Assembly (NCBI RefSeq): GCF_002804065.1
Contig: NZ_CP024955.1
Location: 3,162,001 to 3,226,000, forward strand
Source: Kyrpidia spormannii
Lineage (GTDB): Bacteria > Bacillota > Bacilli > Kyrpidiales > Kyrpidiaceae
Length of the DNA: 64,000 nt
Direction of reading: 5' to 3'
Within the stretch, counting starts at the first letter, position 1. Every line of letters begins with the position of its first letter. The position numbers and the translations under genes were made by a program. Positions 12,656-42,067 of the stretch are shown piece after piece. The notes below the pieces were generated by a model, which saw only the letters and a list, made by a program, of their open reading frames with translations, was not told the DNA's origin and did no database searches.

Positions 12656-12804
12656 ACTCATTAGAGACCGTCCTGTCGGAGCCTGGGGATTCGCCTATTG
12701 TTCGGGATGCGGCCATCCAGCGTTTCGAGTACACTTTTGAAGCCGCGTGGAAGGCCGCGCAACTCTTTTTGGCAGTAGTGGAAGGGATGCCGCCCCGCGG
12801 TTAA
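12610..12804 (+). pseudogene. HEPN (HepT/HI0074-like) gene, truncated
   Basis: A GTG start overlapping the MNT gene by 46 bp opens a frame with VERLRNRLKTALRALNSLE and the conserved QRFEYTFEAAWKAAQLFL of nucleotidyltransferase-substrate-binding (HEPN) proteins. It stops after 64 codons, whereas family members have about 130-145, so the catalytic R-x4-6-H motif in the second half is missing. The stop TAA shares bases with the stop of the convergent SLH gene. The break looks like a deletion or replacement that brought the SLH gene next to it. Confidence 0.75.
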
Positions 12805-26030: not shown

Positions 26031-27664
26031 CGTTTACCCCCCTTGACGGGCTCCGTCCGCGGCCGGTACCGGAAGAGGATCGACACAGCCGCCCCGAACA
26101 GGACCCACACCACCCCCGAAAGCCCGATCACCGAGTCGTTGACAAGACCCTGCACCAGCCAGGCCACCCAGGCCGCGAAAAGTGGCACCAACAACCGCAC
26201 CGCCTGCCCGGGCAGGATCCGCCGCCAAAGCGTGGCCACCATGCGCCAGGCGTGCAGCGCAAACAACGCGAGCAGCGCCACAAGGGCCGGCACCCCCGCC
26301 CCGAAAGCCCAGGCCAGATACATGTTGTGGGGCTTGTCCACGATAATGTTATAATCGTGCAAATTGCTGTTCTTGGCCGGATCGTCCTGGGGAAAATAAA
26401 ACATGAAGGTATCCATGCCGTGTCCCAGCCAAGGGGAGTCGGCGATCATCGACACCGCCCACTTCCAGATGTACAGCCGTCCGCTCCCGGCTCCGGTCTC
26501 GGCGGGAGGCAGGTAGATACCATCCGGAGCATTGGGCTTCGGCCCCCCGGCCGGCTGGCCCGCGGCCGCCTCACCTCCGGCTGCCTGGGCGGACCCCGCC
26601 TTCATCGGAGATGCCCCCTGTTCCGCCGCCACCGCCCGTGGATAACCCGCCTCTAAAAGACCCGAGGCGCCCGGCGCCCCCCGCTGCTCCAATCCGCCGA
26701 GATTCACAAAAGTCCCGATGGTGTTCTCCCACACCGCCGGGTTGTGCGGACTCATGACGGCAAACACCCCAACGAAAGCCACCAGGGGCACGGCAAAGCC
26801 TAGCCACCCCCGCCGGGGGCGCAGCCGCAAGCCCGCCACCGCCAACACCACGAGGATGCCCACCAAGGTCGCGAATCCGCTGGTGGAGGTGGAGGCAAGA
26901 ACGGCGGCAAAAGAAATCACCGCCAGCACCACGTCGACAACCCACCGGGACCACCGGCCGCCGTCCCACATCGCCCGGGCCCAAAACAGGGCGGTGGTCA
27001 CCGCCGCAAACCCGCTGAGATAGTTCGGGTTGGCCAGGGAGGTGACCAGATACCCCGTCGTGTGTTCGGACCCCGGCCCCGGCGGCACGATCAACGCCCG
27101 GAACCAAGGGATTTGGAACATGTCGTGTCCATAAAAATACATCAGCGAAATGAGGACGTTCACCACCACCGGAACCGCCAGACCGTACATGAGCAGCTCC
27201 ACCCGCCGGTCGGTGTACTCCGTATTCGCCGCAATGAGGAAAAGGGCAAAATAACACAGGTAGGTCAAAGTCCCTTCAAATCGGCTGGGATCGCCCCCCA
27301 GGGCCAGGAACATATACGGTGCGGCCAGGCCTGAAGCCAAGAAAAGCACAAAGGCGACGGCCAGTGGCGGATTTATGTACCCCGGGCGGATCTCGTAGCG
27401 CCCTTTGGTCATTTTGTAGAGAAAGAAGGCCGCCACAACCACCGTCACAACCAGCAGAAAGACGTATTTATAATAGTTGAACACATCCCCCTTGCCGCCG
27501 GTGCCCATCGCCCCGGGATACAGCACCGGGCTGATGAACAGAAACGCTTTCACCCGCATGATAATAGGCGCCAGCGCCACAAAAACGATCAAAATTCCCG
27601 CAACCCATCGGTCCACCTTTTGTTGGGTTTCCAAGTGGACCGACCGGAGAAGTGCACGACTCAC
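26027..27664 (-). CDS. O-antigen ligase / Wzy-type polymerase
   Basis: This 545-residue membrane protein has about 12 helices and the large periplasm-side loop typical of Wzy_C (O-antigen ligase) proteins. Conserved features include TGYLVTSLANPNYLSGFAA, STSTSGFATLVGI, WAVSMIADSPWLGHGMDTF and DKPHNMYLAWAFGAG, the last with the family His. The loop has a Gly/Ala/Pro-rich low-complexity insert (around AQAAGGEAAAGQPAGGPKP). The GTG at 27664 with GAGGTGA eight bases upstream is chosen; a longer frame overlaps the TPR gene completely and is spurious. It likely joins or ligates glycan units made by this cluster. Confidence 0.8.
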   Translation of the reverse strand: MSRALLRSVHLETQQKVDRWVAGILIVFVALAPIIMRVKAFLFISPVLYPGAMGTGGKGDVFNYYKYVFLLVVTVVVAAFFLYKMTKGRYEIRPGYINPPLAVAFVLFLASGLAAPYMFLALGGDPSRFEGTLTYLCYFALFLIAANTEYTDRRVELLMYGLAVPVVVNVLISLMYFYGHDMFQIPWFRALIVPPGPGSEHTTGYLVTSLANPNYLSGFAAVTTALFWARAMWDGGRWSRWVVDVVLAVISFAAVLASTSTSGFATLVGILVVLAVAGLRLRPRRGWLGFAVPLVAFVGVFAVMSPHNPAVWENTIGTFVNLGGLEQRGAPGASGLLEAGYPRAVAAEQGASPMKAGSAQAAGGEAAAGQPAGGPKPNAPDGIYLPPAETGAGSGRLYIWKWAVSMIADSPWLGHGMDTFMFYFPQDDPAKNSNLHDYNIIVDKPHNMYLAWAFGAGVPALVALLALFALHAWRMVATLWRRILPGQAVRLLVPLFAAWVAWLVQGLVNDSVIGLSGVVWVLFGAAVSILFRYRPRTEPVKGGKR

Positions 27665-27780
27665 CCGCTTTTTCACCTCTTCCCGATCCGCGTTCCGGCT
27701 GATGCGGGGTACTCGCGACGCCGTGCCCCTTGACGTCCCCGCGTGTCGACTTATCCAAGGCCGGGCCCGATCCCCGCCCT

Positions 27781-28290
27781 CTATGGCTTGGCCCGGGCCT
27801 GGGCTTCTTTCGCCTGGATCTTGTCCAGCCACGACTTCGCTTCCTTCGCCAGATCGGTGCCGCCGTTCAGCGACACGCTGCGCTCCAGATACTCCTTCGC
27901 CCGGGCGAGATCCCCTTTGGCGTACAGCAGTTCTCCATACTGGGTCACGTACAGTTGGTCGTTCAGCAAAAAGGGCCGCTGCTCCCTCGCCTTGGTGAAG
28001 TATTGATCCGCCAAGTCGTAGTTTTTCAGTCCGAATTGGCAAATTCCATAGTTCCACAACGCCATGAAGCTGTGCGGCTGGGCCTCGACCACTTTCTTCA
28101 GCAGCGGTTCCGCCTGGGCGTACTGCTGCTGTTGCATCAGGGTCTGGGACTGTTGAAACGCCTGGAATGTCTTGAGAAATTGTTTGTTCTGGTCCGAGGC
28201 GATATTGTACCCGATCAACAGCCCCACCACAGCCGCCGCGGCCAGCACGTACACCACGGCATTTCTCACCGCTCCGGTTATCGCCGCCAT
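27781..28290 (-). CDS. Membrane-anchored TPR protein
   Basis: This 169-residue protein has one N-terminal membrane helix (AVVYVLAAAAVVGLLIGYNI). Tetratricopeptide repeats follow, including YAQAEPLLKKVVEAQPHSFM, YDLADQYFTKAREQRPFLL and LARAKEYLERSVSLNGGTD. TPR anchors next to Wzy-type polymerases often act as scaffolds, and the gene lies just upstream of the O-antigen ligase in the same direction. The start at 28290 follows a G-rich ribosome site. Its partners are unknown. Confidence 0.75.
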   Translation of the reverse strand: MAAITGAVRNAVVYVLAAAAVVGLLIGYNIASDQNKQFLKTFQAFQQSQTLMQQQQYAQAEPLLKKVVEAQPHSFMALWNYGICQFGLKNYDLADQYFTKAREQRPFLLNDQLYVTQYGELLYAKGDLARAKEYLERSVSLNGGTDLAKEAKSWLDKIQAKEAQARAKP

Positions 28291-28443
28291 CCCCCACCCC
28301 CCTCATCCACCACCGATTCTATTGAACTTTCCCAGCTCCGTAAAGGGTGGATGGGCCCGGTCGGCCCCATGCGGCACCCCGAAGCAACAAAGCGGCCGCC
28401 GCCCGTCCCCGCGGACCGGCGACAACCGCTTCATCGCCAAGGC

Positions 28444-31400
28444 TCACGCCTCGGCCTCCCGCTTCCGGCGGCCGAAAACCCGCCCCAACCGGCGCCGGAT
28501 CCAGTGGCCGAAATCGTCAAAGAGGGTGTACACCACAGGCACCAGCACCAGGGTCACCAGCGTCGACACCGTGAGCCCGAAGGCCACCACCGTGGCCATG
28601 GGCGCCTGGGCCTCTGCCCCTTCGCCGTATCCGATCACCAACGGCAGCATGGCCAACACCGTGGTGGCGGTGGTCATCAGGATCGGGCGCAGCCGGATCG
28701 GGCCCGCCTGCTCAATGGCGTCGTTGCGCGCCAACCCCCGCTTGCGTAACTGGTTGATATAGTCCACCAGCACGATGGCGTTGTTCACCACGATCCCGAT
28801 CACCATGATCATGCCGGTCAGCGCATCAATGCTCAGCGCCCGGTGGGTCACCACCAGCCCCAAAGCCGCCCCGATGAAAGTCGGGGGCAGGGAGAACATG
28901 ATGATAAAGGGACTGAACAGGGACTCGAACTGACTCGCCATGACCATGTAGACGAACACGATGGCCAGAGGCATCGCCAACCCGAGACTCCGGAACGAGT
29001 CGTTCAGGTCATTGGCCTGGCCGCCGAGCTGCACCGTATAACCGTCGGGCAGCGGAAGTTCCTGCAGCTTTGCCGTCACCGCCTGCTGGGCGTTCCCCAG
29101 GGGCACGTTGAACAACTCCGCTGATACGGTGACCGTCCGGTTCTGGTTGACCCGGGTGATGGTCGCCGGCCCCACCCCCGGCACGATCTTCGCCACGTCC
29201 CCCAGGGCCACCTGGCCCCCGGTGGGAGTTGCGATCATGATCTGGCTGAGGTTCGAATACTGCCGGGTGAAGGAGTCCGGGTATTTCACCAGCACGTCGA
29301 TGGACGCATCCGCTGCCCGGTACTGTGTGGCCACATTCCCCGCCGACGCCGTCCTCACCGCGGAGACAATGCTCCCCACCGACAGCCCGTACTGGGCCGC
29401 CCGCTGCCGGTCGACCAGGATTTGGAATTGCGGCACCTGGCGGTCCAGAGAGCTCTGGATATTCCGCAGGCCCGGCACCGCGGAAAGCGCTTTTTGCACC
29501 TCATCGCTCAGTTGTTGTAACACCGCGACATCCGGTCCGGAGATCTGAACCTGAATGGGGGCGCCCCCCGCCCCAATCTGGGGCCCGGCCCCGGCGCTCA
29601 CGGTGATTCTTGCGCCGGGAATGCGGGACACCTCCTGGCGGAGTTGCTCCATCACCTGTTCGGTGGACCGGTGCCGCTCGGCCAGAGGCTTGAGTTCCAC
29701 CTGCAGGTTCGCCCGGTCGGTGGAAGCGGCGGCGCCAAAGCCCATCTGCCCCCCGCCGCCGAGCTGGGTGAACACCCGATCGACCTCCGGAATCCTGTGG
29801 AGAACGGTTTCGACCTGGGTCGCCACCCGATCCGTCGTTTGCAGATTGGTGCCCGTGCCCGTTTCAATGGAAACCCGAAACTGCCCGTTGTCCACGGTGG
29901 GCGTCAGCTCGAATCCGATCAAGGGCACCATGGCGACACTCGCCACAAAGAGTGCCAGGGTCGCGGCAATCACCGTTTTGCGATGTCCCAGCGCCCAGCG
30001 GAGCAGGTGCCCGTACCCCCGATTCAGGGTCTGAATCCCCCGGCCGAAGGCCGCCACCGGGTTCCACCGGGCCGCCCGGCGAAGTTCCTCCTCCTCGTTC
30101 ATCTCGGGAATCCACCGCGCCGCCAGCATGGGCACCAGCGTAAGGGCGCCGAACAATGCGGCGATATGGGAGAAGCTCACCGTCAGGGCAAGGGGGCCGA
30201 ACAACTGCTGGGCCAACCCCTGGGTGAAAGCGATGGGCAAAAACACCGCAATCTGCGACAGGGCCGATGCCATGACGGCGGTGCCCACCTCCGCCGTCCC
30301 CACCTTCGCCGCTTCCTTGGGGCCGGCACCCTCGCTCCGGTGGCGGAAGATACTTTCCAGCACCACCACGGCGAAGTCCACGAGGGACCCCAGTCCCAAG
30401 GCCAGACCCCCAAGAGTGATCACATTGATGGTCTGTCCGCTAAAATAGAGCAACGAAAAGGTGCTGATCACCGAGATGGGGATCACCACGGCGATGACCA
30501 GCGTGGTGCGCACCCGGCGCAAAAACAGATAGAGCACCACCACCGAAAACAGGGCCCCGAGCAGGGTGTGGTTGACAACGGTATCGATGGATTGTTTGAT
30601 AAACGTCGCCTGGTCAGAAATGACACTGAGTTTTACCGTCGGCGGCAAAAGCTTTTGCAAAGTGTCGAGCTCCTTCCGGACGTTGTCCGACACCTGGACG
30701 GTGTTGCCGTCCGACACTTTGTACACATCGATGCTCACACTCTGCTGCCCGTCGAGTCTGGCCGACTGAGTGACCTCGGCGAAGGTATCCTGGATGTCGG
30801 CGATGTCCCGCAGGTGCAGGACCGGAACCCCGGGAACGTCCCCGGCAGAGCCCGGGCCAGCGGCGCCGGACGGCGACCCGGAGAGATGGATGGGCACATC
30901 CCCAAGATCCTGGACCGATTGAAAATCCCCGATCACTCGCACCGTGACCCGCCGGGTGCCCTGGTCCACCACTCCGGCATCCGCCGACGTATTGTCCCCC
31001 TGAATGGCCTGAAGCACCTGATTGATCGAGATCCCGTAAGCCTGCATTTTGGCCGGATCCAGGACCACCTGGATCTGCCGCTGCCGCCCCCCGCTCACCG
31101 TGGCCGAAGCCACCCCGTTCACCCGGGACAGCCGGGGCTCCACCACATCCGACGCCAACCGCTGCAACTCGACAGGGTCCATCGGGCCGGACATTGCAAT
31201 GCTCAAGATCGGCATGCTGTTCGGGTCCAGCCGCATCACCTGGGGCGTGTCCGCCCCGTCGGGCAAAGCCTTTCGCACCCGATCCAGTTTGTCACGCATG
31301 TTGAGCATGGCCTGGTCGAGATTGACGCCATAGTTGAAATGCACCACGACCAAGGATCCGCCCTGTCGGGAGCTGGAATCGACCTCACTGACCCCCTGCA

Positions 31401-31620
31401 CCGTCGCCATGGCGGCCTCGATGGGCTTACTCACCTGCTGCTCCATCTCTTCCGGGGACGCTCCGTTCCAGGTCGTCGTCACCACCGCCACCGGAATGCT
31501 GAGGGTGGGGTAGAGATCCACCCGCAACAGCGGCAAGGCGATGCTTCCGAGCAGGATCAGCACCACCATGATCATGGAGATCGTGACCGGACGTTCTACC
31601 GAAAAATCCGCGATCTTCAT
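28444..31620 (-). CDS. RND efflux transporter, SwrC/AcrB type
   Basis: This 1058-residue RND pump has the two-fold layout of 12 helices and two large extracytoplasmic loops. It starts with FSVERPVTISMIMVVLILLG, and the porter domain has ASPEEMEQQVSKPIEAAM. The TM4 motif reads GSLVDFAVVVLES, keeping one Asp of the usual DD pair. GIVVNNAIVLVDYINQLRKR marks the second half. It resembles B. subtilis SwrC/YerP (surfactin and lipid export). The start overlaps the stop of its adaptor gene. The substrate is probably hydrophobic, but this cannot be read from the sequence. Confidence 0.9.
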   Translation of the reverse strand: MKIADFSVERPVTISMIMVVLILLGSIALPLLRVDLYPTLSIPVAVVTTTWNGASPEEMEQQVSKPIEAAMATVQGVSEVDSSSRQGGSLVVVHFNYGVNLDQAMLNMRDKLDRVRKALPDGADTPQVMRLDPNSMPILSIAMSGPMDPVELQRLASDVVEPRLSRVNGVASATVSGGRQRQIQVVLDPAKMQAYGISINQVLQAIQGDNTSADAGVVDQGTRRVTVRVIGDFQSVQDLGDVPIHLSGSPSGAAGPGSAGDVPGVPVLHLRDIADIQDTFAEVTQSARLDGQQSVSIDVYKVSDGNTVQVSDNVRKELDTLQKLLPPTVKLSVISDQATFIKQSIDTVVNHTLLGALFSVVVLYLFLRRVRTTLVIAVVIPISVISTFSLLYFSGQTINVITLGGLALGLGSLVDFAVVVLESIFRHRSEGAGPKEAAKVGTAEVGTAVMASALSQIAVFLPIAFTQGLAQQLFGPLALTVSFSHIAALFGALTLVPMLAARWIPEMNEEEELRRAARWNPVAAFGRGIQTLNRGYGHLLRWALGHRKTVIAATLALFVASVAMVPLIGFELTPTVDNGQFRVSIETGTGTNLQTTDRVATQVETVLHRIPEVDRVFTQLGGGGQMGFGAAASTDRANLQVELKPLAERHRSTEQVMEQLRQEVSRIPGARITVSAGAGPQIGAGGAPIQVQISGPDVAVLQQLSDEVQKALSAVPGLRNIQSSLDRQVPQFQILVDRQRAAQYGLSVGSIVSAVRTASAGNVATQYRAADASIDVLVKYPDSFTRQYSNLSQIMIATPTGGQVALGDVAKIVPGVGPATITRVNQNRTVTVSAELFNVPLGNAQQAVTAKLQELPLPDGYTVQLGGQANDLNDSFRSLGLAMPLAIVFVYMVMASQFESLFSPFIIMFSLPPTFIGAALGLVVTHRALSIDALTGMIMVIGIVVNNAIVLVDYINQLRKRGLARNDAIEQAGPIRLRPILMTTATTVLAMLPLVIGYGEGAEAQAPMATVVAFGLTVSTLVTLVLVPVVYTLFDDFGHWIRRRLGRVFGRRKREAEA

Positions 31621-33119
31621 GACAGGTTACCTCGCGCCCGATTGCTTTGATCCCATGAGGCCCACCCGTCCCAGGATGCCGAGGAGGAGGCGCCCATGAC
31701 AGCCGACGTCGCGCCACCGGCCGATGATCCGCGCGAAGACGCACCCGGCCCGCCGGGCGCGTGGCCGCCCTTGACCGGGCTGCCCGCGCCGCCAGAATTG
31801 TTCACCCCGCCGTTTGCGGCGGCGCCCGGAGTTCTCGCACCGGGACTCCCGTTGCCGCCCGAGGCGCCGCCCGAACCCGGTTGCACAATGGTCACCGCGG
31901 CGCCCTCGCCGAGCAGGTCCTGGCCGGAGATGACCAGCACATCCCCTTCTTTGAGGCCTTTCAGGACCTGGACGTGCTGGCTGTCCACCGCACCGACCTG
32001 GATCAAATGCTGGTGGGCCGTGTTATTCTCCACGGTGAAGACCTTCGGGCCATCCGGCGTCTCCACCATGGCCGAAGCCGGGATAACCAGCCCCCGGGCC
32101 GGGGTCAGCCCGTCGATCGTAACCTGGGCCACCATCCCGGGCTTGAGCCGTCCGTCCCCGTTCGGGATCTCCACCTCGGCGCCGTAGGATTTTGTGGTAT
32201 TATCCTCCACCGGATCGATCCTCGACAGGGTGCCCGACGCATCCATCCCCGCCGCCGGGACCTGCACCTTGACGGACATCCCGGCCTTGAGATCGTTGAT
32301 CCGGTTCTCCGGCACCTGGATCGTTACTTTGGCCGGATTGATCTGTGCGATGGTGACCACCGACGACTGCGGGCCGGCAAACTCCCCGGGCTCTACGTCC
32401 CGGGAGGCCACCACCCCGGCAACAGGCGAGGTGACCGTGGCCTCGGCCAACTGGCTCTGCAGGGTGGCAAGGGCCGTCTGGGCCTGATTCACCTGGGCCT
32501 GGGCCACTTTAATCCCATCCTGGTTGAGCGGATTGCCCCCCGGAGCCGCGGTCTGCACCTGTTGGAGCGCCGCGTCATACGCCGCCTGTTTGGTCTGCAG
32601 AGTCACCGATGCGGCATCGAGCTGCTGCTGGGAGGCCGCGCCGGCATCAAACAGATTTTTCGTGCGCTCATAATTAGTCTTTGCATCATCCAGGGCCACT
32701 TTGGCCTGGGTCAAGGCAGAGTTCGCCTGGGTGTACCCGTTTTGGGCATCCGAGCGGGCCTTGTTCAGTTGGGCCTCGGCGACCTGGAGCGCCGCCTGCT
32801 GTTGGGCAATCTGATGCTCCAGATCGCTGGTGTCGATCCTGGCCAGGGCTTGTCCGGCGGCCACCGCGTCTCCGGCCTTCACCAGGACTGCGGCGACTTT
32901 CCCGGATAGCTTTGGCGCCACTTTGGTCACTGCGGTCGCCTGGACCTGTCCGGTCAGGGTGAGGCTCCCCCCGACATCCCCCATCCGGACCACTGTAGTT
33001 TCGACGGGGATCGGTTTAGCTTGGCGCGTGGCGGCAGGCTTGCCCCCAGCGCACCCCGCGAGGGGCGCGCCCAGGACAAGGGCCGCAACCAGCGTGAGTG
33101 CGAGGCGGTGTGGTCTCAT
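31617..33119 (-). CDS. RND-type membrane fusion lipoprotein (HlyD/AcrA family)
   Basis: This 500-residue adaptor has a lipobox (APLAGCAGG) giving an acylated Cys near residue 23. A lipoyl half-motif (GKVAAVLVKAGDAVAAGQAL), a long coiled-coil hairpin rich in Gln/Ala (about 95-190), the second lipoyl half (VTSPVAGVVASRDVEPGEF) and a beta-barrel follow. The C-terminus is an unusual Gly/Ser/Ala-rich tail of about 75 residues. Its stop overlaps the RND pump start, so the two form one complex. A hairpin this long normally docks onto a TolC-type duct. Confidence 0.85.
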   Translation of the reverse strand: MRPHRLALTLVAALVLGAPLAGCAGGKPAATRQAKPIPVETTVVRMGDVGGSLTLTGQVQATAVTKVAPKLSGKVAAVLVKAGDAVAAGQALARIDTSDLEHQIAQQQAALQVAEAQLNKARSDAQNGYTQANSALTQAKVALDDAKTNYERTKNLFDAGAASQQQLDAASVTLQTKQAAYDAALQQVQTAAPGGNPLNQDGIKVAQAQVNQAQTALATLQSQLAEATVTSPVAGVVASRDVEPGEFAGPQSSVVTIAQINPAKVTIQVPENRINDLKAGMSVKVQVPAAGMDASGTLSRIDPVEDNTTKSYGAEVEIPNGDGRLKPGMVAQVTIDGLTPARGLVIPASAMVETPDGPKVFTVENNTAHQHLIQVGAVDSQHVQVLKGLKEGDVLVISGQDLLGEGAAVTIVQPGSGGASGGNGSPGARTPGAAANGGVNNSGGAGSPVKGGHAPGGPGASSRGSSAGGATSAVMGASSSASWDGWASWDQSNRARGNLS

Positions 33120-33389: not shown

Positions 33390-35069
33390 TCATCCTTCAG
33401 CCTTCGCCGGAGCGGCCGAAGCCGCAGGGGAACCGGTGTGGGCCGGCTGGGCCTTCGGCCGGCTCCTCAGGAAGAAAATGAGCGGCAGGGCACAGAACAG
33501 CGGGATCGACGCCACCATGAACGTGTCGGCGACGGCCCGGGTCACCGCCTCCTTCTGGATGAGGCCCGCCAGGACCGCCGACGCTCCGCCCGCAGCTGTC
33601 GCCGGATCCAGCCCGGCCTGGCCCAGACCGGCACTGACCTGGGCCTGAAGCTGGGCGAAGGGCACCGAGTCGATGGTCACCCCGTCACTGATCCGGGACA
33701 ATTGCACCGCCGAACGCTGCTGGAGAATCGTGGTGAGCGCCGCGATGCCGAAGGAGGCGCTCACTTGGCGCACCATATTCCCGAGGCCGGACGCCCGGCC
33801 GATTGTATCGGGCGGCAGCGCGTTCATCCCGGAGGTGGTCAACGGCATCATCGAAAGACCGATCCCCAAACCCCGAAGGACCAAGACCCATGTCAGCCAG
33901 GAATTCGGCGTATCCAAGGCCAAATTGTGCAGATGATACGTCATGGCGGCCAGGAGCAGCACTCCCACGACCCCCAAAGGCACCGGGCCTATCTTGTCAA
34001 ATAATTTGCCGGAGACGGGCATCATCAGCGCCATGGCCAGAGCCTGGGGCATGAGGAGCAGTCCCGTGTCCATCGCCGACAGACCCTGGATATTCTCCAA
34101 GTACAGAGGTGTCAGAAACACCCCTCCGAACAGCCCCACCATCACGAGACTGGAGGTGATGGTGCTGATGGTGAAGGTCGGGTTCTTGAACAGCCGCAGG
34201 TCCACTAGGGGTTTGGCGGTGCCGAGCTCCACCCAGACCAGAAGGCTCAGGGCGGAGACGGCGATGAAGAAGAGACTGACAATGTAAAAGGACCCCCAGC
34301 CATCTTTTTGGCCGTCGCTGAGCGCCAGCAAAAGTGTCCCGGTGCCCACCATGGAGAGGATGAACCCCGCCGTGTCGAAACCGAGGTCTTTCTGGATCGG
34401 CGTTTCCCGCAGCAGGATCATCCCGAATAGGGCGGCGAGCAGTCCAAAGGGTACGTTGACCAGAAACAGCAGGTGCCAGGAAAAATATTGAATCAAGTAG
34501 CCTCCAAAAGTCGGGCCCACGGCGGGCGCGGCCATGGACGCGATCCCCCAGATTCCCAGCGCTAGGCCGATCTGGTGCCTGGGAATGATCTTGTAGATGA
34601 TCGTCATGCTGAGAGGCATCAGCGTCCCGCCGGCCAACCCCTGCAAAATCCGGAAACCGATCAAGGCTGAAGTGCTCCATGCGACCGAGCACAGAAACGA
34701 CGCCGCGACAAAGAGCAGAACGGAGATCAAATAGGATTTTTTGTAGCCGAACCGGTCACCGAGAAAACCACTCAGGGGCACCACCATGGCCGAAGCCAGG
34801 GTGTAGCCGGTCAGCACCCACTGGATCTGGTCCGTGGAGGCCCCGAAAAAATTCGCGAGTTGGGGCAGGGCGACGTTAATCAGGCTGTTGTTGAGGATCG
34901 CCATAAAGGCCCCGAGGATGATGACGACCAGAGCCAGCCACTGGGCCTCCACGACCTCATCGGGGGCGGCCGGCCCTCCGGACCCGGCCCCGGGACCCGG
35001 GCGATCCCCGGCGCCAGCCGCCGGGCCGCCTGGACCGCCCGGCTGCGCGACCACGTCCTCCCGGCTCAC
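33390..35069 (-). CDS. emrB: MFS drug transporter, EmrB/DHA2 family (14 helices)
   Basis: This 559-residue protein has a Gly/Pro-rich N-terminal tail and then 14 predicted helices. Motif A is GFLGDRFGYKKSYLI, motif D1 LNNSLINVALPQLANFFG, and motif C-like segments include AMAAPAVGPTFGGYL. This is the DHA2 proton-drug antiporter layout of EmrB. Its start overlaps the HlyD-type gene upstream by four bases, as in emrAB operons. A second, shorter EmrA-like gene lies one gene further upstream. Confidence 0.9.
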   Translation of the reverse strand: MSREDVVAQPGGPGGPAAGAGDRPGPGAGSGGPAAPDEVVEAQWLALVVIILGAFMAILNNSLINVALPQLANFFGASTDQIQWVLTGYTLASAMVVPLSGFLGDRFGYKKSYLISVLLFVAASFLCSVAWSTSALIGFRILQGLAGGTLMPLSMTIIYKIIPRHQIGLALGIWGIASMAAPAVGPTFGGYLIQYFSWHLLFLVNVPFGLLAALFGMILLRETPIQKDLGFDTAGFILSMVGTGTLLLALSDGQKDGWGSFYIVSLFFIAVSALSLLVWVELGTAKPLVDLRLFKNPTFTISTITSSLVMVGLFGGVFLTPLYLENIQGLSAMDTGLLLMPQALAMALMMPVSGKLFDKIGPVPLGVVGVLLLAAMTYHLHNLALDTPNSWLTWVLVLRGLGIGLSMMPLTTSGMNALPPDTIGRASGLGNMVRQVSASFGIAALTTILQQRSAVQLSRISDGVTIDSVPFAQLQAQVSAGLGQAGLDPATAAGGASAVLAGLIQKEAVTRAVADTFMVASIPLFCALPLIFFLRSRPKAQPAHTGSPAASAAPAKAEG

Positions 35070-36346
35070 GGGGTCTTCCCTCCCTGCACCTGGACCTGGG
35101 CGCCGTCTTTGAGGTCGGCCGGGGGCTGAATGACCAGCTTGTCGCCGATGTTCACCCCGGACGCGGCGATAAACCAGTTGTTGTCTTTCTGCTTCCCTTG
35201 CACCGCCACGCGACGAGCCTTGTCGCCTTCCAGTTTGAAGACTGCCGTTTGGCCACCCTGCTTGACCAAGGTGCTCACCGGGATCTCCACCCCGGCCTCG
35301 CCGCCGGCAAAGGTCACGTCCGCCACCATCCCCGCCCGGAGCTGGCCGCCCGAGTTGGGCACCGTGACTTCCACCGGGAAGGTGTTGTTGTTTTGATCGG
35401 ACACAGGGCTGAGGAAGGTGATCGTCCCGGTGAAGATCTGATCCCCCAGTTCGGCCACGTGCACCGCCACCGTCTGGCCGGTGTGAAGCCCGGGCAAAAG
35501 GGTCTGGGGCACACTGGCGTCCACCTTCACCGTGTCGAGATTCACCAGGGTCATCAGGGGCACCCCCGGGGCCGCCATCTCCCCCGGATTGATGTTTTTC
35601 GACGCGACCACTCCGTCCATGGGCGCGGTGATCTTCGTGTTCGCCAGGTTATTCTGCGCCGCCTGCAGCGCGGCCTGGGCCTGGTTCACCGCCCCCCGGG
35701 CCTGGTCGACCTGGGCTTTCAGCGCCGCGATGGTGTTCGCCGTGGCCCCGGCCTGGGCCAGACTGAGCTGGGCTTTGGCCTGATCCAGTGCCCCCTTGGC
35801 CTGGGCCAACCCGAGCTGGGCCTGATCCAGCGCCGACTGGGGTGCGGCCCCGGCGTTAAACAGGTTTTGCGTGCGGGTCAGGTTCTCCTGGGCGGTGTCA
35901 TACGCCGCCTGAGCCTGCTCCACCGCCGCCTGGAGCTGTTGAATCTGTTGCTCCCGGGCGCCGGCAAGGGTGTCGGCCAGCTTCGCCTGGGCGGCGGCGA
36001 GTCCAGCCTGGGCCTGTTCCACCCCGGCCTGGGCCTGGTTGACAGCGGCGGTATAGTCGGTGGGATCGAGCTCCACCAGGACCTGCCCCTTATGTACCCG
36101 GGACCCCTCGGTCACATGAACCGCCGTCACCCTTGCCCCCAATTTCGAGGACACCTGCACGGAATCGGCCGCCGCCACCTTGCCGGTCACCGTCTGGCCG
36201 CCGCCGGCCACGGTGAACACCTGGACCACGGGCCCGGTCAGCGCCGCCGGCGCCGATGTGGCACCGGAGCCGCAGCCGGAGAGCAACAGCAGCAGCGCGG
36301 AAGAGGCGGCGATGAACAAACCAAGGTTCTTCGGACCTCTTTTCAT
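35066..36346 (-). CDS. HlyD/MFP adaptor lipoprotein
   Basis: This 426-residue adaptor has lipobox LLLLLSGCGSG, N-terminal lipoyl half (GARVTAVHVTEGSRVHKGQV) and a very regular Ala/Gln-rich coiled-coil hairpin (about 95-225) with NLFNAGAAPQSALDQAQLGL at its tip. ITAPMDGVVASKNINPGEM is the second lipoyl half, followed by beta-barrel and membrane-proximal domains. It lies between a short EmrA-like gene and emrB with a 4-bp overlap. The hairpin tip resembles RND/MacA-type adaptors more than EmrA, so it may link the MFS pump to the TolC-like protein upstream. Confidence 0.85.
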   Translation of the reverse strand: MKRGPKNLGLFIAASSALLLLLSGCGSGATSAPAALTGPVVQVFTVAGGGQTVTGKVAAADSVQVSSKLGARVTAVHVTEGSRVHKGQVLVELDPTDYTAAVNQAQAGVEQAQAGLAAAQAKLADTLAGAREQQIQQLQAAVEQAQAAYDTAQENLTRTQNLFNAGAAPQSALDQAQLGLAQAKGALDQAKAQLSLAQAGATANTIAALKAQVDQARGAVNQAQAALQAAQNNLANTKITAPMDGVVASKNINPGEMAAPGVPLMTLVNLDTVKVDASVPQTLLPGLHTGQTVAVHVAELGDQIFTGTITFLSPVSDQNNNTFPVEVTVPNSGGQLRAGMVADVTFAGGEAGVEIPVSTLVKQGGQTAVFKLEGDKARRVAVQGKQKDNNWFIAASGVNIGDKLVIQPPADLKDGAQVQVQGGKTP

Positions 36347-36358
36347 CCCGTCCCCCTC

Positions 36359-37015
36359 CTATCCTTTGATGTGAATGCGGATCTCCGCGCTCATCCCCGG
36401 CGACAGGTCGGCCCCGTGCTGGTCGTCAATGCTGATCTTGATCGGGATCCGCTGGGTGACCTTGGTGAAGTTGCCGCTGGTGTTGAGCGCCGGAATGGCC
36501 GAGAAAGTTGAATTGGTGGCCTGGCCGATGTCCATCACCCTACCCGTAAAACGAAGGCCCGGAAAACTGTCCACCGTAAAATCCACCGGTTCGCCGAGAC
36601 GGATCTTCCCGAGGTTCGTCTCCTCGATGTTCGCTTCCACGTAGAGATTCTTCTTGTTGACGATGAGCGCGACCGGTTGTCCCGGTGAAACCACCTCCCC
36701 CACCTTGGCCAGGGTCTTGATCACCGTCCCGCTGGCGGGCGCCCGGAGCAGGGCGTTGTCGAGCAGGCTGTTCGGCAGATTGCTGACATCCTGCTGGCCC
36801 ACGATCTGGTCGGCGACCACGTAGTCCCCTTCGCGGATGTTTAAGGAAATCAGCTTCCCGGCTGTACGGGGCATCACGCGATAGATGTCCCCGTCGATCC
36901 GTGCGTCGTCGGTGGATACATAATGCGACGCCTGATACCAGTAATAGGCGCCGATGCCCCCGCCGCCGAGGACGATCGCAATCACGAGGATGATGAGGAT
37001 GATCTTCCGTTTCAT
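36359..37015 (-). CDS. Short EmrA-like membrane fusion protein
   Basis: This 218-residue protein has one N-terminal helix (IILIILVIAIVLGGGG), then YVSTDDARIDGDIYRVMPRTAGK as in EmrA, and a second lipoyl part (LLRAPASGTVIKTLAKVGEV). The long coiled-coil hairpin is missing and the two lipoyl halves are almost adjacent. The C-terminal beta-barrel is present. EmrA proteins are usually about 390 residues. Similar short forms occur in Firmicutes. The ATG at 37015 has a distant GGGAGGG. An in-frame ATT five codons earlier sits better but would be rare. Confidence 0.8.
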   Translation of the reverse strand: MKRKIILIILVIAIVLGGGGIGAYYWYQASHYVSTDDARIDGDIYRVMPRTAGKLISLNIREGDYVVADQIVGQQDVSNLPNSLLDNALLRAPASGTVIKTLAKVGEVVSPGQPVALIVNKKNLYVEANIEETNLGKIRLGEPVDFTVDSFPGLRFTGRVMDIGQATNSTFSAIPALNTSGNFTKVTQRIPIKISIDDQHGADLSPGMSAEIRIHIKG

Positions 37016-37422
37016 GACCGCGTCAATGGTCCCTCCCTCTTTCTTCGCCCGATGCCCGGCGCAAGCCCGGGGTGGGCGTTCTCTCTGTCGGGTTTGCCGT
37101 TGCGGCAGCGCACAGGCACCAGCGACATGATTCTTTACGCACAAAAAAAGACTCGTCGTTCCCAATTTCCGGATATGGCCGAGGCTCCCACCGCCTCCTT
37201 CCACGAAATCGTTAGTGTGCGAACGATCTCGGTGTATTCTATATTAACGCAAAGCGGCAACCGTGAACAGAGTTTGAAAAAAGAAAGGACGCCGGCCACA
37301 AGTCGCGGCCGGCCACGGGAGGGGCTTTTGCGCCGGATTTCTTGCCTTTTTATCATCTGGGAAGGATTGTTGTGTGGCTGTTGCGTGGTTCAGAAAAGGT
37401 TGGATGCCCCGGCCCCGCCGGA
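37016..37422 (-). other. Intergenic region between the TolC-like gene and the adaptor operon
   Basis: These 407 bp have no gene. They contain the terminator at 37276-37313 and, just downstream of it on the minus strand, an AT-rich TATAGAAT near 37240 that may be the -10 of the adaptor/emrB operon. Confidence 0.4.
37276..37313 (-). terminator. Rho-independent terminator after the TolC-like gene
   Basis: GCCGGCC and GGCCGGC form a 7-bp stem around a 9-nt loop, followed on the minus strand by TCCTTTCTTTTTTC. It separates the TolC-like gene from the downstream pump genes at the transcript level. Confidence 0.75.
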
Positions 37423-38937
37423 TCAACCCGCGGACCCGCCGCTCGAGGTGCCGGAGGTGCTCCCCGATCCGCCGGCCACCCAGGGCTTCTCAAAAACCAT
37501 CTTGAGATTGTCGAACTGGGCCGCGGTGTTGGCGAGCTGCTGCTTCAATTGATCCACCTTGGCCTGGGCCGCCACCACGTCCGCCTGGATGCCGGTCCCG
37601 TACTGGTACTGGATCTGGGCGAGCTTCAGGCTTTGCTCGGCGGCCGCGAGCTGGGACTGGAGCGATTGATACTGATCCCGGAGCTCGAGCAGCCCGTTGT
37701 AGGCGGAGCGCACCGCGCGGGAAAGTTGGTCTTGCAGATCCTGAACGGTGTTGGCCGCCTTTTGCACATCGATCTGCTTCGCCTCATACGGGTCCGGGTT
37801 CATTTTGTCGTTGAAGGTGTACAGGTCAAGCTGCAGCTTCGCGAGGTTGACCTGTTGCTCGGCCTGCCAGATCGCCGGGCTGTCCGAAGTCACCCGGGCC
37901 ACCTGGGCTTCGGGATCCACGTTTTTGAGATCGTCGACCTGGGGCTGGTCCACCACCTGGTACTTGGCATCCGTGGGGAGCCCCGTCAGGCTGTTGAGCC
38001 GCTGGTAGGCGTCGGTTACCGCCTTGTTGGCCGCCTCAAGACCGGCTTTCGCGGCTTGGAGCCCCTGCATGGCCTGTTGCCACTGGATGTCGCTCACAGT
38101 CCCGTACTGATGGCCAACCGTGGCAATGTTCGCCTGGACCTGGGCGTTTTTCAGGGCCGCTTCGGCCGCCTGTTGCTGGGCCTCGGCTTGGAGGATACCG
38201 TTGTACGCCTGTTTTACGGCGTAGGTCACCACATCCTGGGCCATGGTGTACGCCCGGAAGGACATCTGGTGAGCGATGGATGCCTGGGCATACCCCGCAT
38301 AGATCTGGGTGGTCGTGGTATCGCCGCCCCGGGCGGGCACGAATTCCACGTTATCCGAGACTTTGTCCAGAACCTTGCTGGTCCGCGTGATGTCTTCCAG
38401 GGCATTCTTCACCTTGTAACTATTGGCGTAGGCCAGCTCCAGCGCTTTCTCGTAGGTCAAGGGGACATTCGTCGTGTCCGGAGAGACCCCGGAGGTGATG
38501 GCCCCCTGGGTCGACAACACCAGGGTTTTCGTGCCGTCGATCCACTCACTGTCCCCGCCCAGCCACTGGGCAACCGGATTTGGCGGGACAAAGATTGCTC
38601 CGTCCAACAGAACCGGAGCCGTGGGCAACGGAACTTGGCTGCCACCGCGCCAGGCCATACTGGATCCAACCGTCAGGGTTACGTTCTGAGAACCCTTCGT
38701 TAAGGTAACCGTCTTAGAGCCTTCGTCTTGTTTAATCAGTGCCCCGAATTGTTTCGCCAATTGGTCAGCGGGTACAAGAACCTGGCCGTCCACCAACCGG
38801 GGCATGGACGTCCATTGCTGGGCTTGGCCGTTCACCACCACCTGCACCGGCTCCGCCTGCACGTCGGCCGCAAACACCGGAGCCGATCCGGCCAGCATCG
38901 CCGTCAACGTCAGCACAGCCACGGGCTTCCACTTCAC
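37423..38937 (-). CDS. TolC-family protein with N-terminal copper-amine-oxidase-like domain
   Basis: This 504-residue secreted protein has a signal peptide ending near PVFAAD. Residues about 28-145 form a copper-amine-oxidase N-terminal-like domain (QVVVNGQAQQWTSMPRLVDG, VLVPADQLAKQFGA, AIFVPPNPVAQWLGG). A TolC/OEP helical region follows with LTYEKALELAYANSYKVKNA, a first hairpin, QLNSLTG-like LNSLTGLPTDAKY, and a second hairpin ending LKLAQIQYQYGTGIQADVVAA. No outer-membrane beta-barrel strands are obvious. The end is a Gly/Ser tail. The GTG start has GGAGG eight bases upstream. It lies between an S-layer-like gene and efflux genes, suggesting a wall-side duct or spacer. Confidence 0.8.
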   Translation of the reverse strand: MKWKPVAVLTLTAMLAGSAPVFAADVQAEPVQVVVNGQAQQWTSMPRLVDGQVLVPADQLAKQFGALIKQDEGSKTVTLTKGSQNVTLTVGSSMAWRGGSQVPLPTAPVLLDGAIFVPPNPVAQWLGGDSEWIDGTKTLVLSTQGAITSGVSPDTTNVPLTYEKALELAYANSYKVKNALEDITRTSKVLDKVSDNVEFVPARGGDTTTTQIYAGYAQASIAHQMSFRAYTMAQDVVTYAVKQAYNGILQAEAQQQAAEAALKNAQVQANIATVGHQYGTVSDIQWQQAMQGLQAAKAGLEAANKAVTDAYQRLNSLTGLPTDAKYQVVDQPQVDDLKNVDPEAQVARVTSDSPAIWQAEQQVNLAKLQLDLYTFNDKMNPDPYEAKQIDVQKAANTVQDLQDQLSRAVRSAYNGLLELRDQYQSLQSQLAAAEQSLKLAQIQYQYGTGIQADVVAAQAKVDQLKQQLANTAAQFDNLKMVFEKPWVAGGSGSTSGTSSGGSAG

Positions 38938-39059
38938 GCCAGGACCCTCCTTCCAAACATGATTCCGAGCTACGGTTCTGCAACGTACCGGCCGAATGGA
39001 CTCCTGCGTCTTCGCAAAGCGTGGTTGATTGGAGCCGCCAAGTATCCCCTGGAAGGGGA

Positions 39060-39080
39060 AGGGCCCCATAAAGGGGCCCT
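39060..39080 (-). terminator. Hairpin between the S-layer-like and TolC-like genes
   Basis: AGGGCCCC and GGGGCCCT form an 8-bp stem with loop ATAAA, about 50 bp after the S-layer-like stop. No T-run follows, so it may only partly terminate or may stabilise the 3' end, leaving read-through into the TolC-like gene possible. Confidence 0.45.
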
Positions 39081-39128
39081 CCTTCGGCAGCCTCAGCCAC
39101 CTATCTGTTTCGACTGTCAAGCGACAAA

Positions 39129-41585
39129 TTATTGTTGGCTGGTCACCGTCACCGTCTGGGTGTTTTGATCCCAGCTCAGTTGCGCGCCGAGCGCCTGGCC
39201 GATCCAGCGAATCGGGAGCATCACGCGGCCATCGTTGTACAACTCCGGCGCCACGTCCATCTGGACCGCCACACCATTGACGACCATGGTGGTGCTGCCC
39301 ACCGTCATCTTCGCCACCGTGTTGCCCTTGAAGATGGTCACGGATTTATCCGCACCGTTCCAGACGATGTGGTCGTCAGTTACCCCCAGGGCGTTGGCCA
39401 CAAACCGCACCGGCAACATCACGCGGCCGTCGTTCTTGAGGTACGGAGCCACGTCCATGGTCTGCTGTACACCGTTGACCGTGTAGCTGTTGCTACCCAC
39501 GGTGAAGGTCGCCACATTGGAGCCGGACTGTGCCGGAGTGGTGACGTTGGCAATCGTCGTGCTGGCAGCGGTTTTGTTGTTGTCATACCAGGTCTGCACG
39601 GCATACGCGCCCTTGAGGTCTGGGTTTGCATCTTTTGCATAGGCCGTGTAAGACACAGATGAACCCTTGACCTTCAGCACAATGCTCCCTTGGGGTACCG
39701 TGCGGTCGAGCTTCAGCTTCGCATCCGAGATCGTAATCTGGCTCGGCGTCGTACTTTCGGCATCTACATAGAAGTCGAGGTAGCCTTTGTTGTCACTGCC
39801 GAGACCGGCGGTTATATCCTTGATCCGGAGGTCGCCTTGGGTGACCTCAACTTTGGGCGTGCCATCGAATTGCACACCATACGGCAGTTCAAGGTGGACC
39901 TGGTTGTAACCAGAGCCTACATCGGAATTCTTAGCAAATCCGCCGGCCACATTTTCGGTCAGTGTAATTGTACCGATTGCCTGACCGCCGGAGCCAACGA
40001 TCACACTGGGCGTCGTATCCGCCTTCACAGAGATGGGCGTCTGAACGGTAGCTACCGTGATGTTCCCGGTCACACCCTCGCTGCCACCGAGCTGAATCGT
40101 CAGATCCCCACTGAATCCGGGCTGCAGAGCAACCTGCATATTCCGCAGGTCGATTTCACCCGGGTTGGTGGAATTTTTGTTTGAACTTCCATTAATGACC
40201 AGTTTCAGGGTCCTGCGGTCGGTGTCCGTATAAAGCACTTGGGGAGTCCCCAAACCATTGGTGGCGGTGATTGACCCAACGTAGTTCCCGTTTGGGTCTT
40301 TACTGTTTTCGAAAGGAGTCTCCCACCGAGCTCCATCAGGCAATTGCAATGTCACGGTACGACCATCAATGAAGGAACCAGGTACAGTTTCCTTAATGAT
40401 GATGTCGCCGATGATCTGTTCCTTCTTGCCAGCGATGAGCGTCGGCTTGCTCACCACAGACGATTCAAAACCAACCTGACCATAATGGCCGACAACCAAG
40501 CTCGATACGTTTGTACTGGAGGCACCTGTGACCTGAACCGTTACGTCACCGTTTCGAGCCACGGTTTCGTCATCAACATAGAAATGCAACCCTGTAATTA
40601 GCCAACCGCTAGCTTGTGTGGTCGAAGCCGTTGTTGAGATCCAAAGGTCTTGATCCTGAACGTGAATTTGCATATTAGTTTGCGGCTTCGCCTCTTGGCC
40701 GTACACCAGAGCTGCGGACGCATTTTGTGAATCTGTATGCCACTTAAATCCACTGGGCAGTTTCAATTTCAGCGCATTGGTGCTCGTCTTAAGGGATCCC
40801 GCAACTTCCTCGTTCACGGCAAGGTTAAACTTGAAGTCATCGCTGCTGCTCTGGGTGTCAGTAGCTGCTAAGTCGACTTTTCCGGAAGATACCACATTAG
40901 CAACGGCGACAGTACCCGTTGGCAGCGCGCTGTTTGAAGGCGCAATCAGCGTTGCGTTAACTGGACCGTCGGAGGGTCCGGTCACGTTGACTTGTGGCAG
41001 GTGCAAAAGGAGGTGCACATCATCGTATTGCGTCCCTGACACCACTTTAACTTTCAGCAATGTTGCACTGGGGATTTCCCACGTTACTGTAGCGTCAGTA
41101 CTTATGGCATTCCCTACCGCCACATCCACGTATGGCGCTGGCACGATTGGGGTGTTGCGGCTGCCAGTCTTGGCGGGTAACCCGACGGGATACGTTACAC
41201 CATTAACCGCCACGTTGGTTGTTATTGTAGGTGCTGTTGTACCATCAAGCATGGTAACCGACGCATTTCCCGGCGAACCATTTACATTGGTCGTTTGCCA
41301 CTTGGTTCCCACAACGGCGGGGTCAAACTGAAAGCCGTTTGGCAACATAAGAGTAACTTGGTTATCCTGACCACTCGCTAAAGCACCTTTGGGAATGAAC
41401 AGATCAACCGTTCCCAAATCAGCAGTTTGCACAGAACTATTAATATTCGGCACGACCAACGCTGTCGCCGTTCCGGCCGCATGGGCCACCGTCGCGGTCA
41501 AGAAGGGCAGCGCCACAGCCGCCGGCGTAGTGCCGAAGAGAGCTGCGGTGGAAAGTACTGCAAGAGCCTTTTTGCCTTTGTTCAT
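39129..41585 (-). CDS. S-layer-like surface protein with C-terminal copper-amine-oxidase-like repeats
   Basis: This 818-residue secreted protein has a signal peptide of about 35 residues ending TVAHAAGT. A long beta-rich body has repeated blocks such as GTVDLFIPKGALASG, TVTLQLPDGARWETPF and NQVHLELPYGVQFDG. The last about 125 residues carry two copper-amine-oxidase N-domain-like repeats (VNGVQQTMDVAPYLKNDGRV and VNGVAVQMDVAPELYNDGRV). Composition is Thr/Val/Ser-rich and cysteine-free, as in S-layer proteins. The codon usage is less GC-biased than neighbours. The ATG at 41585 follows GGAGGAGAAACGAGGG. A long leader and a good promoter precede it, as expected for abundant surface protein. Confidence 0.8.
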   Translation of the reverse strand: MNKGKKALAVLSTAALFGTTPAAVALPFLTATVAHAAGTATALVVPNINSSVQTADLGTVDLFIPKGALASGQDNQVTLMLPNGFQFDPAVVGTKWQTTNVNGSPGNASVTMLDGTTAPTITTNVAVNGVTYPVGLPAKTGSRNTPIVPAPYVDVAVGNAISTDATVTWEIPSATLLKVKVVSGTQYDDVHLLLHLPQVNVTGPSDGPVNATLIAPSNSALPTGTVAVANVVSSGKVDLAATDTQSSSDDFKFNLAVNEEVAGSLKTSTNALKLKLPSGFKWHTDSQNASAALVYGQEAKPQTNMQIHVQDQDLWISTTASTTQASGWLITGLHFYVDDETVARNGDVTVQVTGASSTNVSSLVVGHYGQVGFESSVVSKPTLIAGKKEQIIGDIIIKETVPGSFIDGRTVTLQLPDGARWETPFENSKDPNGNYVGSITATNGLGTPQVLYTDTDRRTLKLVINGSSNKNSTNPGEIDLRNMQVALQPGFSGDLTIQLGGSEGVTGNITVATVQTPISVKADTTPSVIVGSGGQAIGTITLTENVAGGFAKNSDVGSGYNQVHLELPYGVQFDGTPKVEVTQGDLRIKDITAGLGSDNKGYLDFYVDAESTTPSQITISDAKLKLDRTVPQGSIVLKVKGSSVSYTAYAKDANPDLKGAYAVQTWYDNNKTAASTTIANVTTPAQSGSNVATFTVGSNSYTVNGVQQTMDVAPYLKNDGRVMLPVRFVANALGVTDDHIVWNGADKSVTIFKGNTVAKMTVGSTTMVVNGVAVQMDVAPELYNDGRVMLPIRWIGQALGAQLSWDQNTQTVTVTSQQ

Positions 41586-42038: not shown

Positions 42039-42067
42039 ATTATAGTCTGTCCGCCGGCAAAGGTAAA
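42039..42067 (-). promoter_or_regulatory. Promoter of the S-layer-like gene
   Basis: On the minus strand TTTACC (42062-42067), a 17-bp spacer and a perfect TATAAT (42039-42044). This is the best sigma-A-like promoter in the region and it points into the long leader. Confidence 0.7.

Follow-up and report, generated by a model that had tools for sequence, protein, structure and literature searches.

A pair of adjacent genes, one for a TolC-like protein predicted to lack a beta barrel and one for a candidate surface protein (SLP), was found in a 64,000-nucleotide stretch of the Kyrpidia spormannii genome (contig NZ_CP024955.1, positions 3,162,001 to 3,226,000; the whole stretch is called the window below, and positions are counted from its first letter). 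The pair is real, conserved and widespread across class and phylum samples of genomes. Both genes lie on the minus strand, the TolC-like gene at 37423..38937 and the SLP gene, upstream of it, at 39129..41585. We lean, with some reserve, towards reading the TolC-like protein as the outlet of tripartite drug pumps in a single-membrane cell, a duct that would open at a protein surface layer and be tied to the SLP; the trimer, the conduit function, the contact with the SLP and the place in the wall are what we infer.

The TolC-like protein and its modelled fold

The TolC-like gene starts with GTG and encodes 504 residues, with a signal peptide at about 1-24 (by eye), a PF07833 domain at 34-140 and OEP repeats at 159-492 (Pfam, AlphaFold, Foldseek and VIA-align). 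OEP (PF02321) was matched by Pfam in two stretches, while none of the four proteins compared with NCBIfam had a match above cut-off. A monomer model, computed by AlphaFold from the window sequence and 13 relatives, has a mean confidence score (pLDDT) of 84.6 and consists of a small beta domain (32-142) and, from residue 162, solely helices. Residues 160-492 of the model superpose on E. coli TolC with a Z of 26.4 over 322 of the 433 TolC residues (VIA-align), and Z ranged from 14.3 to 26.4 against the outer-membrane factors of TolC, OprM and CusC type in rows 1-29 of the structural alignment. Ranks 1-44 of the Foldseek list were TolC, OprM, CusC and similar channels, three entries being titled just "membrane protein"; E. 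coli amine oxidase came next.

Where TolC has its first and second beta hairpins, the model has coils of 12 residues each, at 195-206 (38320..38355, minus strand) and at 372-383 (37789..37824, minus strand), the latter beside a conserved PYxAK stretch. Between the OEP repeats the profile interval is 59 positions, against 110 in TolC, and the second interval is about 50 residues shorter. Because coils occupy both hairpin sites and the repeat interval is short, the TolC-like protein, as modelled, is without a beta barrel. A barrel elsewhere in the protein was excluded, as the strands of the model are confined to the PF07833 domain, bar a two-residue strand near 327-328. The original prediction, made from the letters of this stretch, had noted that an obvious outer-membrane barrel was lacking; the AlphaFold model, with coils and not hairpins, agrees with it, and the normal barrel that it named as a refutation did not appear. 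The protein thus resembles TolC, OprM and CusC in its two OEP repeats, helical tube fold and hairpin tips, and differs from them by the missing barrel, the extra N-terminal PF07833 domain and a host with no sign of an outer membrane.

Relatives were searched with the OEP part at E 1e-6 in a class sample of 398 genomes and a phylum sample of 299 genomes, few genomes being in both; we take the phylum to be Bacillota, and the named relatives (among them Aneurinibacillus, Ammoniphilus, Desulfofundulus, Pelotomaculum, Anaerovirgula and Thermosyntropha) fit this. Matches were found in 48 of the class and 105 of the phylum genomes. In an alignment of 59 proteins, the window's included, in which some rows are as little as 20% identical to the window protein, OEP was matched in every row and room for barrel hairpins was seen in none, the landmark intervals being 54-74 and 49-59 residues (61 and 57 in the window protein). 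Three columns are invariant: A165, G279 and G447. The two glycines (38101..38103 and 37597..37599, minus strand) align with the tips of the first and second helical hairpins of TolC, the part of TolC at which adaptors dock. The best-conserved single residues also include P201 and Y384 in the outer loops and P485 W486 near the C-terminus. A special binding site at the outer end is not claimed, the outer loops being on average no better conserved than other regions. Spread by plasmids was considered and rejected: among 8 plasmid records none covered 80% of the query, the matches listed ended at or before query residue 207, and no TolC-like gene was annotated in the one plasmid region inspected.

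Omp85, the single outer-membrane marker searched for, had no match in the window's genome, though 7 of 14 control genomes matched, and it was matched in 0 of 37 further genomes with a TolC-like gene. SLH domains were found at 23 places of the window's genome. From the lack of Omp85 and the presence of SLH, the host is most likely monoderm, with wall proteins of SLH type. The window itself encodes two SLH proteins (9617-11104 and 12801-15503, minus strand), one with Ig-like repeats and the other with a phosphodiester glycosidase (NAGPA) domain. The missing barrel and the missing Omp85 would also fit a functionless remnant of an outer-membrane TolC, decaying since the outer membrane was lost. 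This is highly improbable in our view, given the intact reading frames, the invariant residues and a partner gene conserved across the samples.

A gene pair conserved in class and phylum samples

The SLP gene encodes 818 residues: a signal peptide is followed by Ig-like beta repeats, about four as judged by eye, and by a C-terminal PF07833 domain at 702-814 (39144..39482, minus strand), according to Pfam, AlphaFold and Foldseek. Its model is almost all a chain of beta domains (pLDDT 74.6). The top Foldseek matches were to PrgB and antigen I/II, in their Ig-like domains, with E down to 1.6e-14; TM-scores to these adhesin domains were low, 0.16-0.26 for the top four, with 9-12% sequence identity. 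PF07833 was the sole Pfam match above cut-off in the protein, SLH being absent, and no LPxTG motif was found. The SLP therefore shares a beta-sandwich chain with Gram-positive adhesins such as PrgB and antigen I/II, unlike which it has no LPxTG motif and ends in PF07833 instead. It shares secretion, large size, beta-rich make-up and wall context with SLH S-layer proteins and, unlike them, carries no SLH. The original prediction had called this neighbour S-layer-like. What stands of that description is an Ig-like surface-protein candidate, for which an S-layer role is putative and the SLH domain is missing.

For the survey of the pair, a TolC-like place was taken as core when matched at E 2e-20 or better, the SLP was searched by its body without the PF07833 domain, and it was scored as upstream when within 4 kb. 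The phylum list holds 73 TolC-like places, the window's own left out, and is complete at E 2e-20 or better and a selection below. The SLP body matched 43 of the 299 phylum and 29 of the 398 class genomes. It was found upstream of 46 of the 64 core places, always on the same strand (22 of 26 in the class sample, window included; 24 of 38 in the phylum sample, window excluded), and 50 of the 52 core genomes contained it (22 of 23 and 28 of 29, respectively). Of the genomes without a core homologue, 7 among 375 in the class sample had it, as did 14 among 269 in the phylum sample, 9 of these 14 having a weaker TolC-like match; these counts are uncorrected for relatedness, and the samples overlap in few genomes.

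The same contrast was obtained by locus. Forty-seven distinct loci were scored, the repeats L117-L120 and L126 being dropped and L129 being scored by its copy without PF07833 only. The SLP was upstream in 34 of 39 core loci versus 0 of 8 weaker ones, four of the latter (L097 and L109-L111) coming from a single family code, f22. Order and strand were kept in loci of 17 family codes, many near 30% identity. These comparisons of sequences support the view that duct and surface protein belong together functionally; docking of the SLP on the duct is a predicted contact.

The PF07833 domain on both proteins

The original prediction had placed a copper-amine-oxidase-like domain on the TolC-like helices and the same type of domain on the neighbouring protein. 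The coordinates given there are right, and the domain was borne out by Pfam, which assigned PF07833 (referred to here as the stalk) to each. In the TolC-like protein the stalk (38518..38838, minus strand) scored E 6e-20 and 71.6 bits, compared with 148.9 bits in the SLP and a cut-off of 24.2, the TolC-like copy being the more degenerate. Each copy consists of two half repeats, and the two are 29% identical in an alignment. Residues 53-128 of the TolC-like protein match the N-terminal domain of E. coli amine oxidase with a Z of 9.5 over 76 residues. No Pfam match to the catalytic domain of copper amine oxidases was found in the 504- or the 818-residue protein.

A single-sequence search with the SLP stalk gave no solved relative at E 0.1; the stalk profile matched 8imd, the Paenibacillus superoxide dismutase PaSOD-1, at E 0.0017 over 36 profile positions. 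In the available text of PMC10432803, PF07833 is the dimerisation domain of this enzyme (8IMD), as seen in the crystal and in solution. With the amine oxidase and PaSOD-1 our proteins thus share the PF07833 sequence, and with the amine oxidase the fold; they differ in having no amine oxidase or superoxide dismutase (SOD) domain, PF07833 being found here on an OEP protein and on an Ig-like SLP. Since PF07833 dimerises PaSOD-1, the stalks of duct and SLP might pair directly as a heterotypic dimer. We find this quite improbable: the 8IMD match spans 36 profile positions only, the two half repeats present in both proteins may pair within one chain, and 22 of the 34 ducts of SLP-linked core loci have no stalk. 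The original prediction had also proposed that the shared domain might dock the duct to the S-layer or wall. The conserved gene pair and the ability of PF07833 to mediate protein contact in PaSOD-1 are in keeping with such a putative docking.

In the literature PF07833 is also found with SOD and with wall hydrolases, and among the loci examined here it was joined with SNase and with MORN repeats. Three further PF07833 places are present in the window's genome, and two of these proteins, when scanned, had no other domain. PF07833 is thus a common extracellular module and not a mark of the wall. Wide occurrence of the domain with no link to the wall had been named beforehand as evidence against a wall-docking role; such occurrence was found in part, for the domain (SNase, MORN, SOD) and not for the gene pair. 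Two loci deserve mention in their own right: in one (L118:1902-4217) a protein of stalk and SNase domain is encoded directly 3' of the TolC-like gene, and in the other (L129:6705-10962) two TolC-like genes stand in tandem, one with a stalk, followed by a gene for a stalk-MORN-repeat protein. In a close relative (G003), a further 126 codons that encode a stalk lie in frame behind the stop codon of the SLP gene (L079:14217-14594); read-through, decay or a separate small protein would all fit it.

Fusion of the stalk to the duct is secondary to the gene pair, being carried by 14 of the 59 aligned proteins. Among the core loci it was found in 13, of which 12 are SLP-linked. Fusion at the N-terminus, seen in 12 rows, takes 5 changes on the OEP tree, and all labels together take 6; this is a quick tree in which 18 of 55 inner branches are open, and its starred branches force 3 to 4. 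One relative (L108) carries the stalk at the C-terminus of its TolC-like protein, and in a Pelotomaculum genome a free PF07833 protein is encoded between the SLP and TolC-like genes. The last two cases suggest that stalk and duct have been coupled repeatedly.

The termini of TolC lie at an equatorial position of the tube. By analogy, both termini of the modelled protein would lie about midway between tips and outer end, so that the stalk would ring the waist of the duct. A stalk at the waist would be no replacement for a barrel, and in 45 of the 59 aligned relatives PF07833 is missing as well as the barrel. Together with the SLP-linked core loci that lack the fusion, this speaks against the suggestion, part of the original prediction, that the shared domain takes the place of the barrel.

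Pump genes, gene control and the proposed duct

Genes for pump parts directly follow the duct gene in the window, all on the minus strand. The first (36359..37204; true start likely near 37012, by eye) is for a short adaptor of HlyD type (Pfam), which has a single membrane helix at its N-terminus and leaves no space for a helical hairpin. It is followed by the gene of a lipoprotein adaptor, MFP1, with a helical hairpin and RxxxLxxxG at residue 158 (35066..36346; Pfam, lipobox by eye), and by that of an MFS drug exporter (33390..35069; Pfam MFS_1), presumably of EmrB type. Next come a second lipoprotein adaptor, MFP2 (31617..33119; Pfam, motif scan), with an R-L-S motif at residue 152, and an RND pump of AcrB type and 1058 residues (28444..31620; Pfam ACR_tran, E 3.1e-256). 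Two of the three adaptors have hairpins, one of them with the R-L-S motif. A short hairpin-less adaptor accompanied by another adaptor and an MFS pump was also seen in L083, L086, L087, L091, L094 and L103, and a pump with two unlike adaptors would be worth a separate study. Beyond the RND gene lie polysaccharide-type genes (23170-28306, minus strand; Wzy_C, Wzz and PMT_2 matches).

Across the loci, pump parts were present in the fetched stretch at 18 of the 39 core loci. RND and adaptor genes were found elsewhere in all 19 genomes tested, namely those of 18 SLP-linked core loci without a pump gene, and G044; as the B. subtilis control matches both families too, this result fails to refute a link with pumps and lends it weak support. 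In Thermosyntropha lipolytica (L105, the same as L126), genes for SLP, TolC-like protein, adaptor, RND pump and a TetR regulator follow in that order. A palindrome, TTGACC-N2-4-GGTC, is embedded in the promoter-like site that precedes the TolC-like gene at L102:9324, L105:4689 (= L126), L107:3308, L127:2467 and L128:2162, and in no other of the 51 loci scanned. Judged by sequence, this palindrome and the TetR layout have the look of inducible efflux genes.

In the mechanism that we propose, the duct would be a trimer that makes up a helical tube of TolC type, and the adaptor lipoproteins of the adjacent MFS and RND pumps would fit their hairpins to its lower tips. At the upper end, six short loops in place of a barrel would lie in or under the protein surface layer, outside any lipid membrane. 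The SLP encoded upstream, with its Ig-like chain and PF07833 domain, would be a specific partner that meets the duct at its surface end or at its waist, and in some lineages the duct would have gained a PF07833 domain of its own at a terminus, giving extra anchoring at the waist. More tentatively, and with some doubt on our side, the SLP might be a dedicated collar that grips the barrel-less end or the waist and seals the tube into the surface layer in the stead of an outer membrane. If so, a widespread group of monoderm Bacillota would pass drugs through both wall and surface layer in a single step.

Several observations weigh against an SLP-tied pump duct. No SLP was upstream at 18 of the 64 core places; these include some second copies, L104 and L106 beside an adaptor gene, and the two core genomes without SLP, G044, where a contig of 9,468 bases begins at the TolC-like gene, and G502, a true exception with another gene upstream. 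Conversely, 11 genomes have an SLP and zero TolC-like match (7 class, 5 phylum, G047 being in both); in one of these (G002) little of the contig is left beyond the SLP gene. At 19 of the 34 SLP-linked core loci the fetched stretch contains no pump gene. As regions, the hairpin tips are mixed: over 14 regions tip 2 has the highest and tip 1 the lowest mean conservation, so that the tip argument rests on the two glycines. Finally, stem-loops between the genes argue against one simple operon.

In the window, the stem-loop between the two genes has 9 pairs and no T-run (39059..39081, minus strand), in a stretch that folds with z -4.08. Under a strict rule (100 bases behind the SLP stop, with simple shuffles of base pairs as control), 26 of 34 homologous gaps have an uninterrupted stem of at least 8 pairs, compared with 2.5 expected; 13 of the 26 have a T-rich tail, and nearly all remaining gaps show interrupted stems (by eye). 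A terminator-like stem-loop after the TolC-like gene (37291..37313, minus strand) is a weak candidate, from a pattern scan in which 8 were found versus 7.2 in shuffles, and a promoter-like site about 450 bases before the SLP start (42039..42067, minus strand) has 10 of 12 matches, with 5 such sites in the region versus 2.0 in shuffles. The stem-loops would fit a strongly expressed SLP gene from which read-through is limited, or a promoter for each gene. They would also suit genes that adjoin for reasons of history or regulation alone, the SLP being a general wall protein that does not touch the duct, as would the genomes with SLP and no TolC-like protein and the separate promoter-like sites before the TolC-like gene in several loci. 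We consider this unlikely in view of the order and strand kept across the 17 family codes, of the fusion of PF07833 to either end of the duct, with its repeated label changes, and of the free PF07833 protein between both genes in Pelotomaculum.

The tube could otherwise be a structural strut, that is, a wall-spanning coiled-coil spacer, with no conduit, that fixes the distance of SLP or S-layer from the membrane. SLP pairing is indeed steadier than pump linkage (34 against 18 of the 39 core loci), the fetched stretch lacks a pump gene at 19 of the 34 SLP-linked ones, and residues of the outer loops and the C-terminus (P201, Y384, P485 W486) are among the best conserved. Against a strut stand the invariant glycines at the tips, in the part that docks adaptors in TolC, the TetR-type control together with RND in one lineage, and the pump genes directly behind the duct gene in the window, and we regard it as unlikely. 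An exit duct for pumps, tied to the SLP, remains the reading towards which we lean.

The closest published work on such proteins is that of Stubenrauch et al. It describes TolC-like proteins in monoderm Firmicutes, encoded in pump operons, and proposes an S-layer location for them (PMC8809574, 2022); its available text makes the proposal for 12 proteins of 5 families and bases it on S-layer genes in the same 12 hosts, two C. difficile secretome studies and the hydrophilic surface of one homology model, and a C. difficile model there has an omission in the barrel domain. The proteins analysed here are like those in their monoderm host, OEP fold, truncated barrel and accompanying pump and adaptor genes; unlike here, the available text mentions neither a particular family of surface proteins in the neighbourhood, nor a fusion with PF07833, nor a conserved pair of SLP and TolC-like genes, and "copper amine" is absent from its main text. 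A PF02321 protein, Dred_3141, has been found in surface extracts of Desulfotomaculum reducens, and the available text of the same paper lists the PF07833 protein Dred_3143 among the surface proteins; the two are at most candidate members of such a pair. Neither the pair nor the PF07833 fusion was found in print in searches of one open-access library. The earlier statement that no system of this form is described therefore holds for the SLP pair and the fusion and not for monoderm TolC-like proteins as such: the idea of a duct in the S-layer had already been proposed, and the partner protein and its evolution appear to be new.

How a TolC-type duct works without an outer membrane is a question that a specific and conserved partner makes directly testable. 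It also bears on the loss of the outer membrane in the phylum, where a duct that traded its barrel for a protein partner would be a plausible intermediate or survivor. Kept in many distantly related bacteria, the gene pair offers a concrete clue to how such ducts might terminate at the cell surface where no outer membrane exists.

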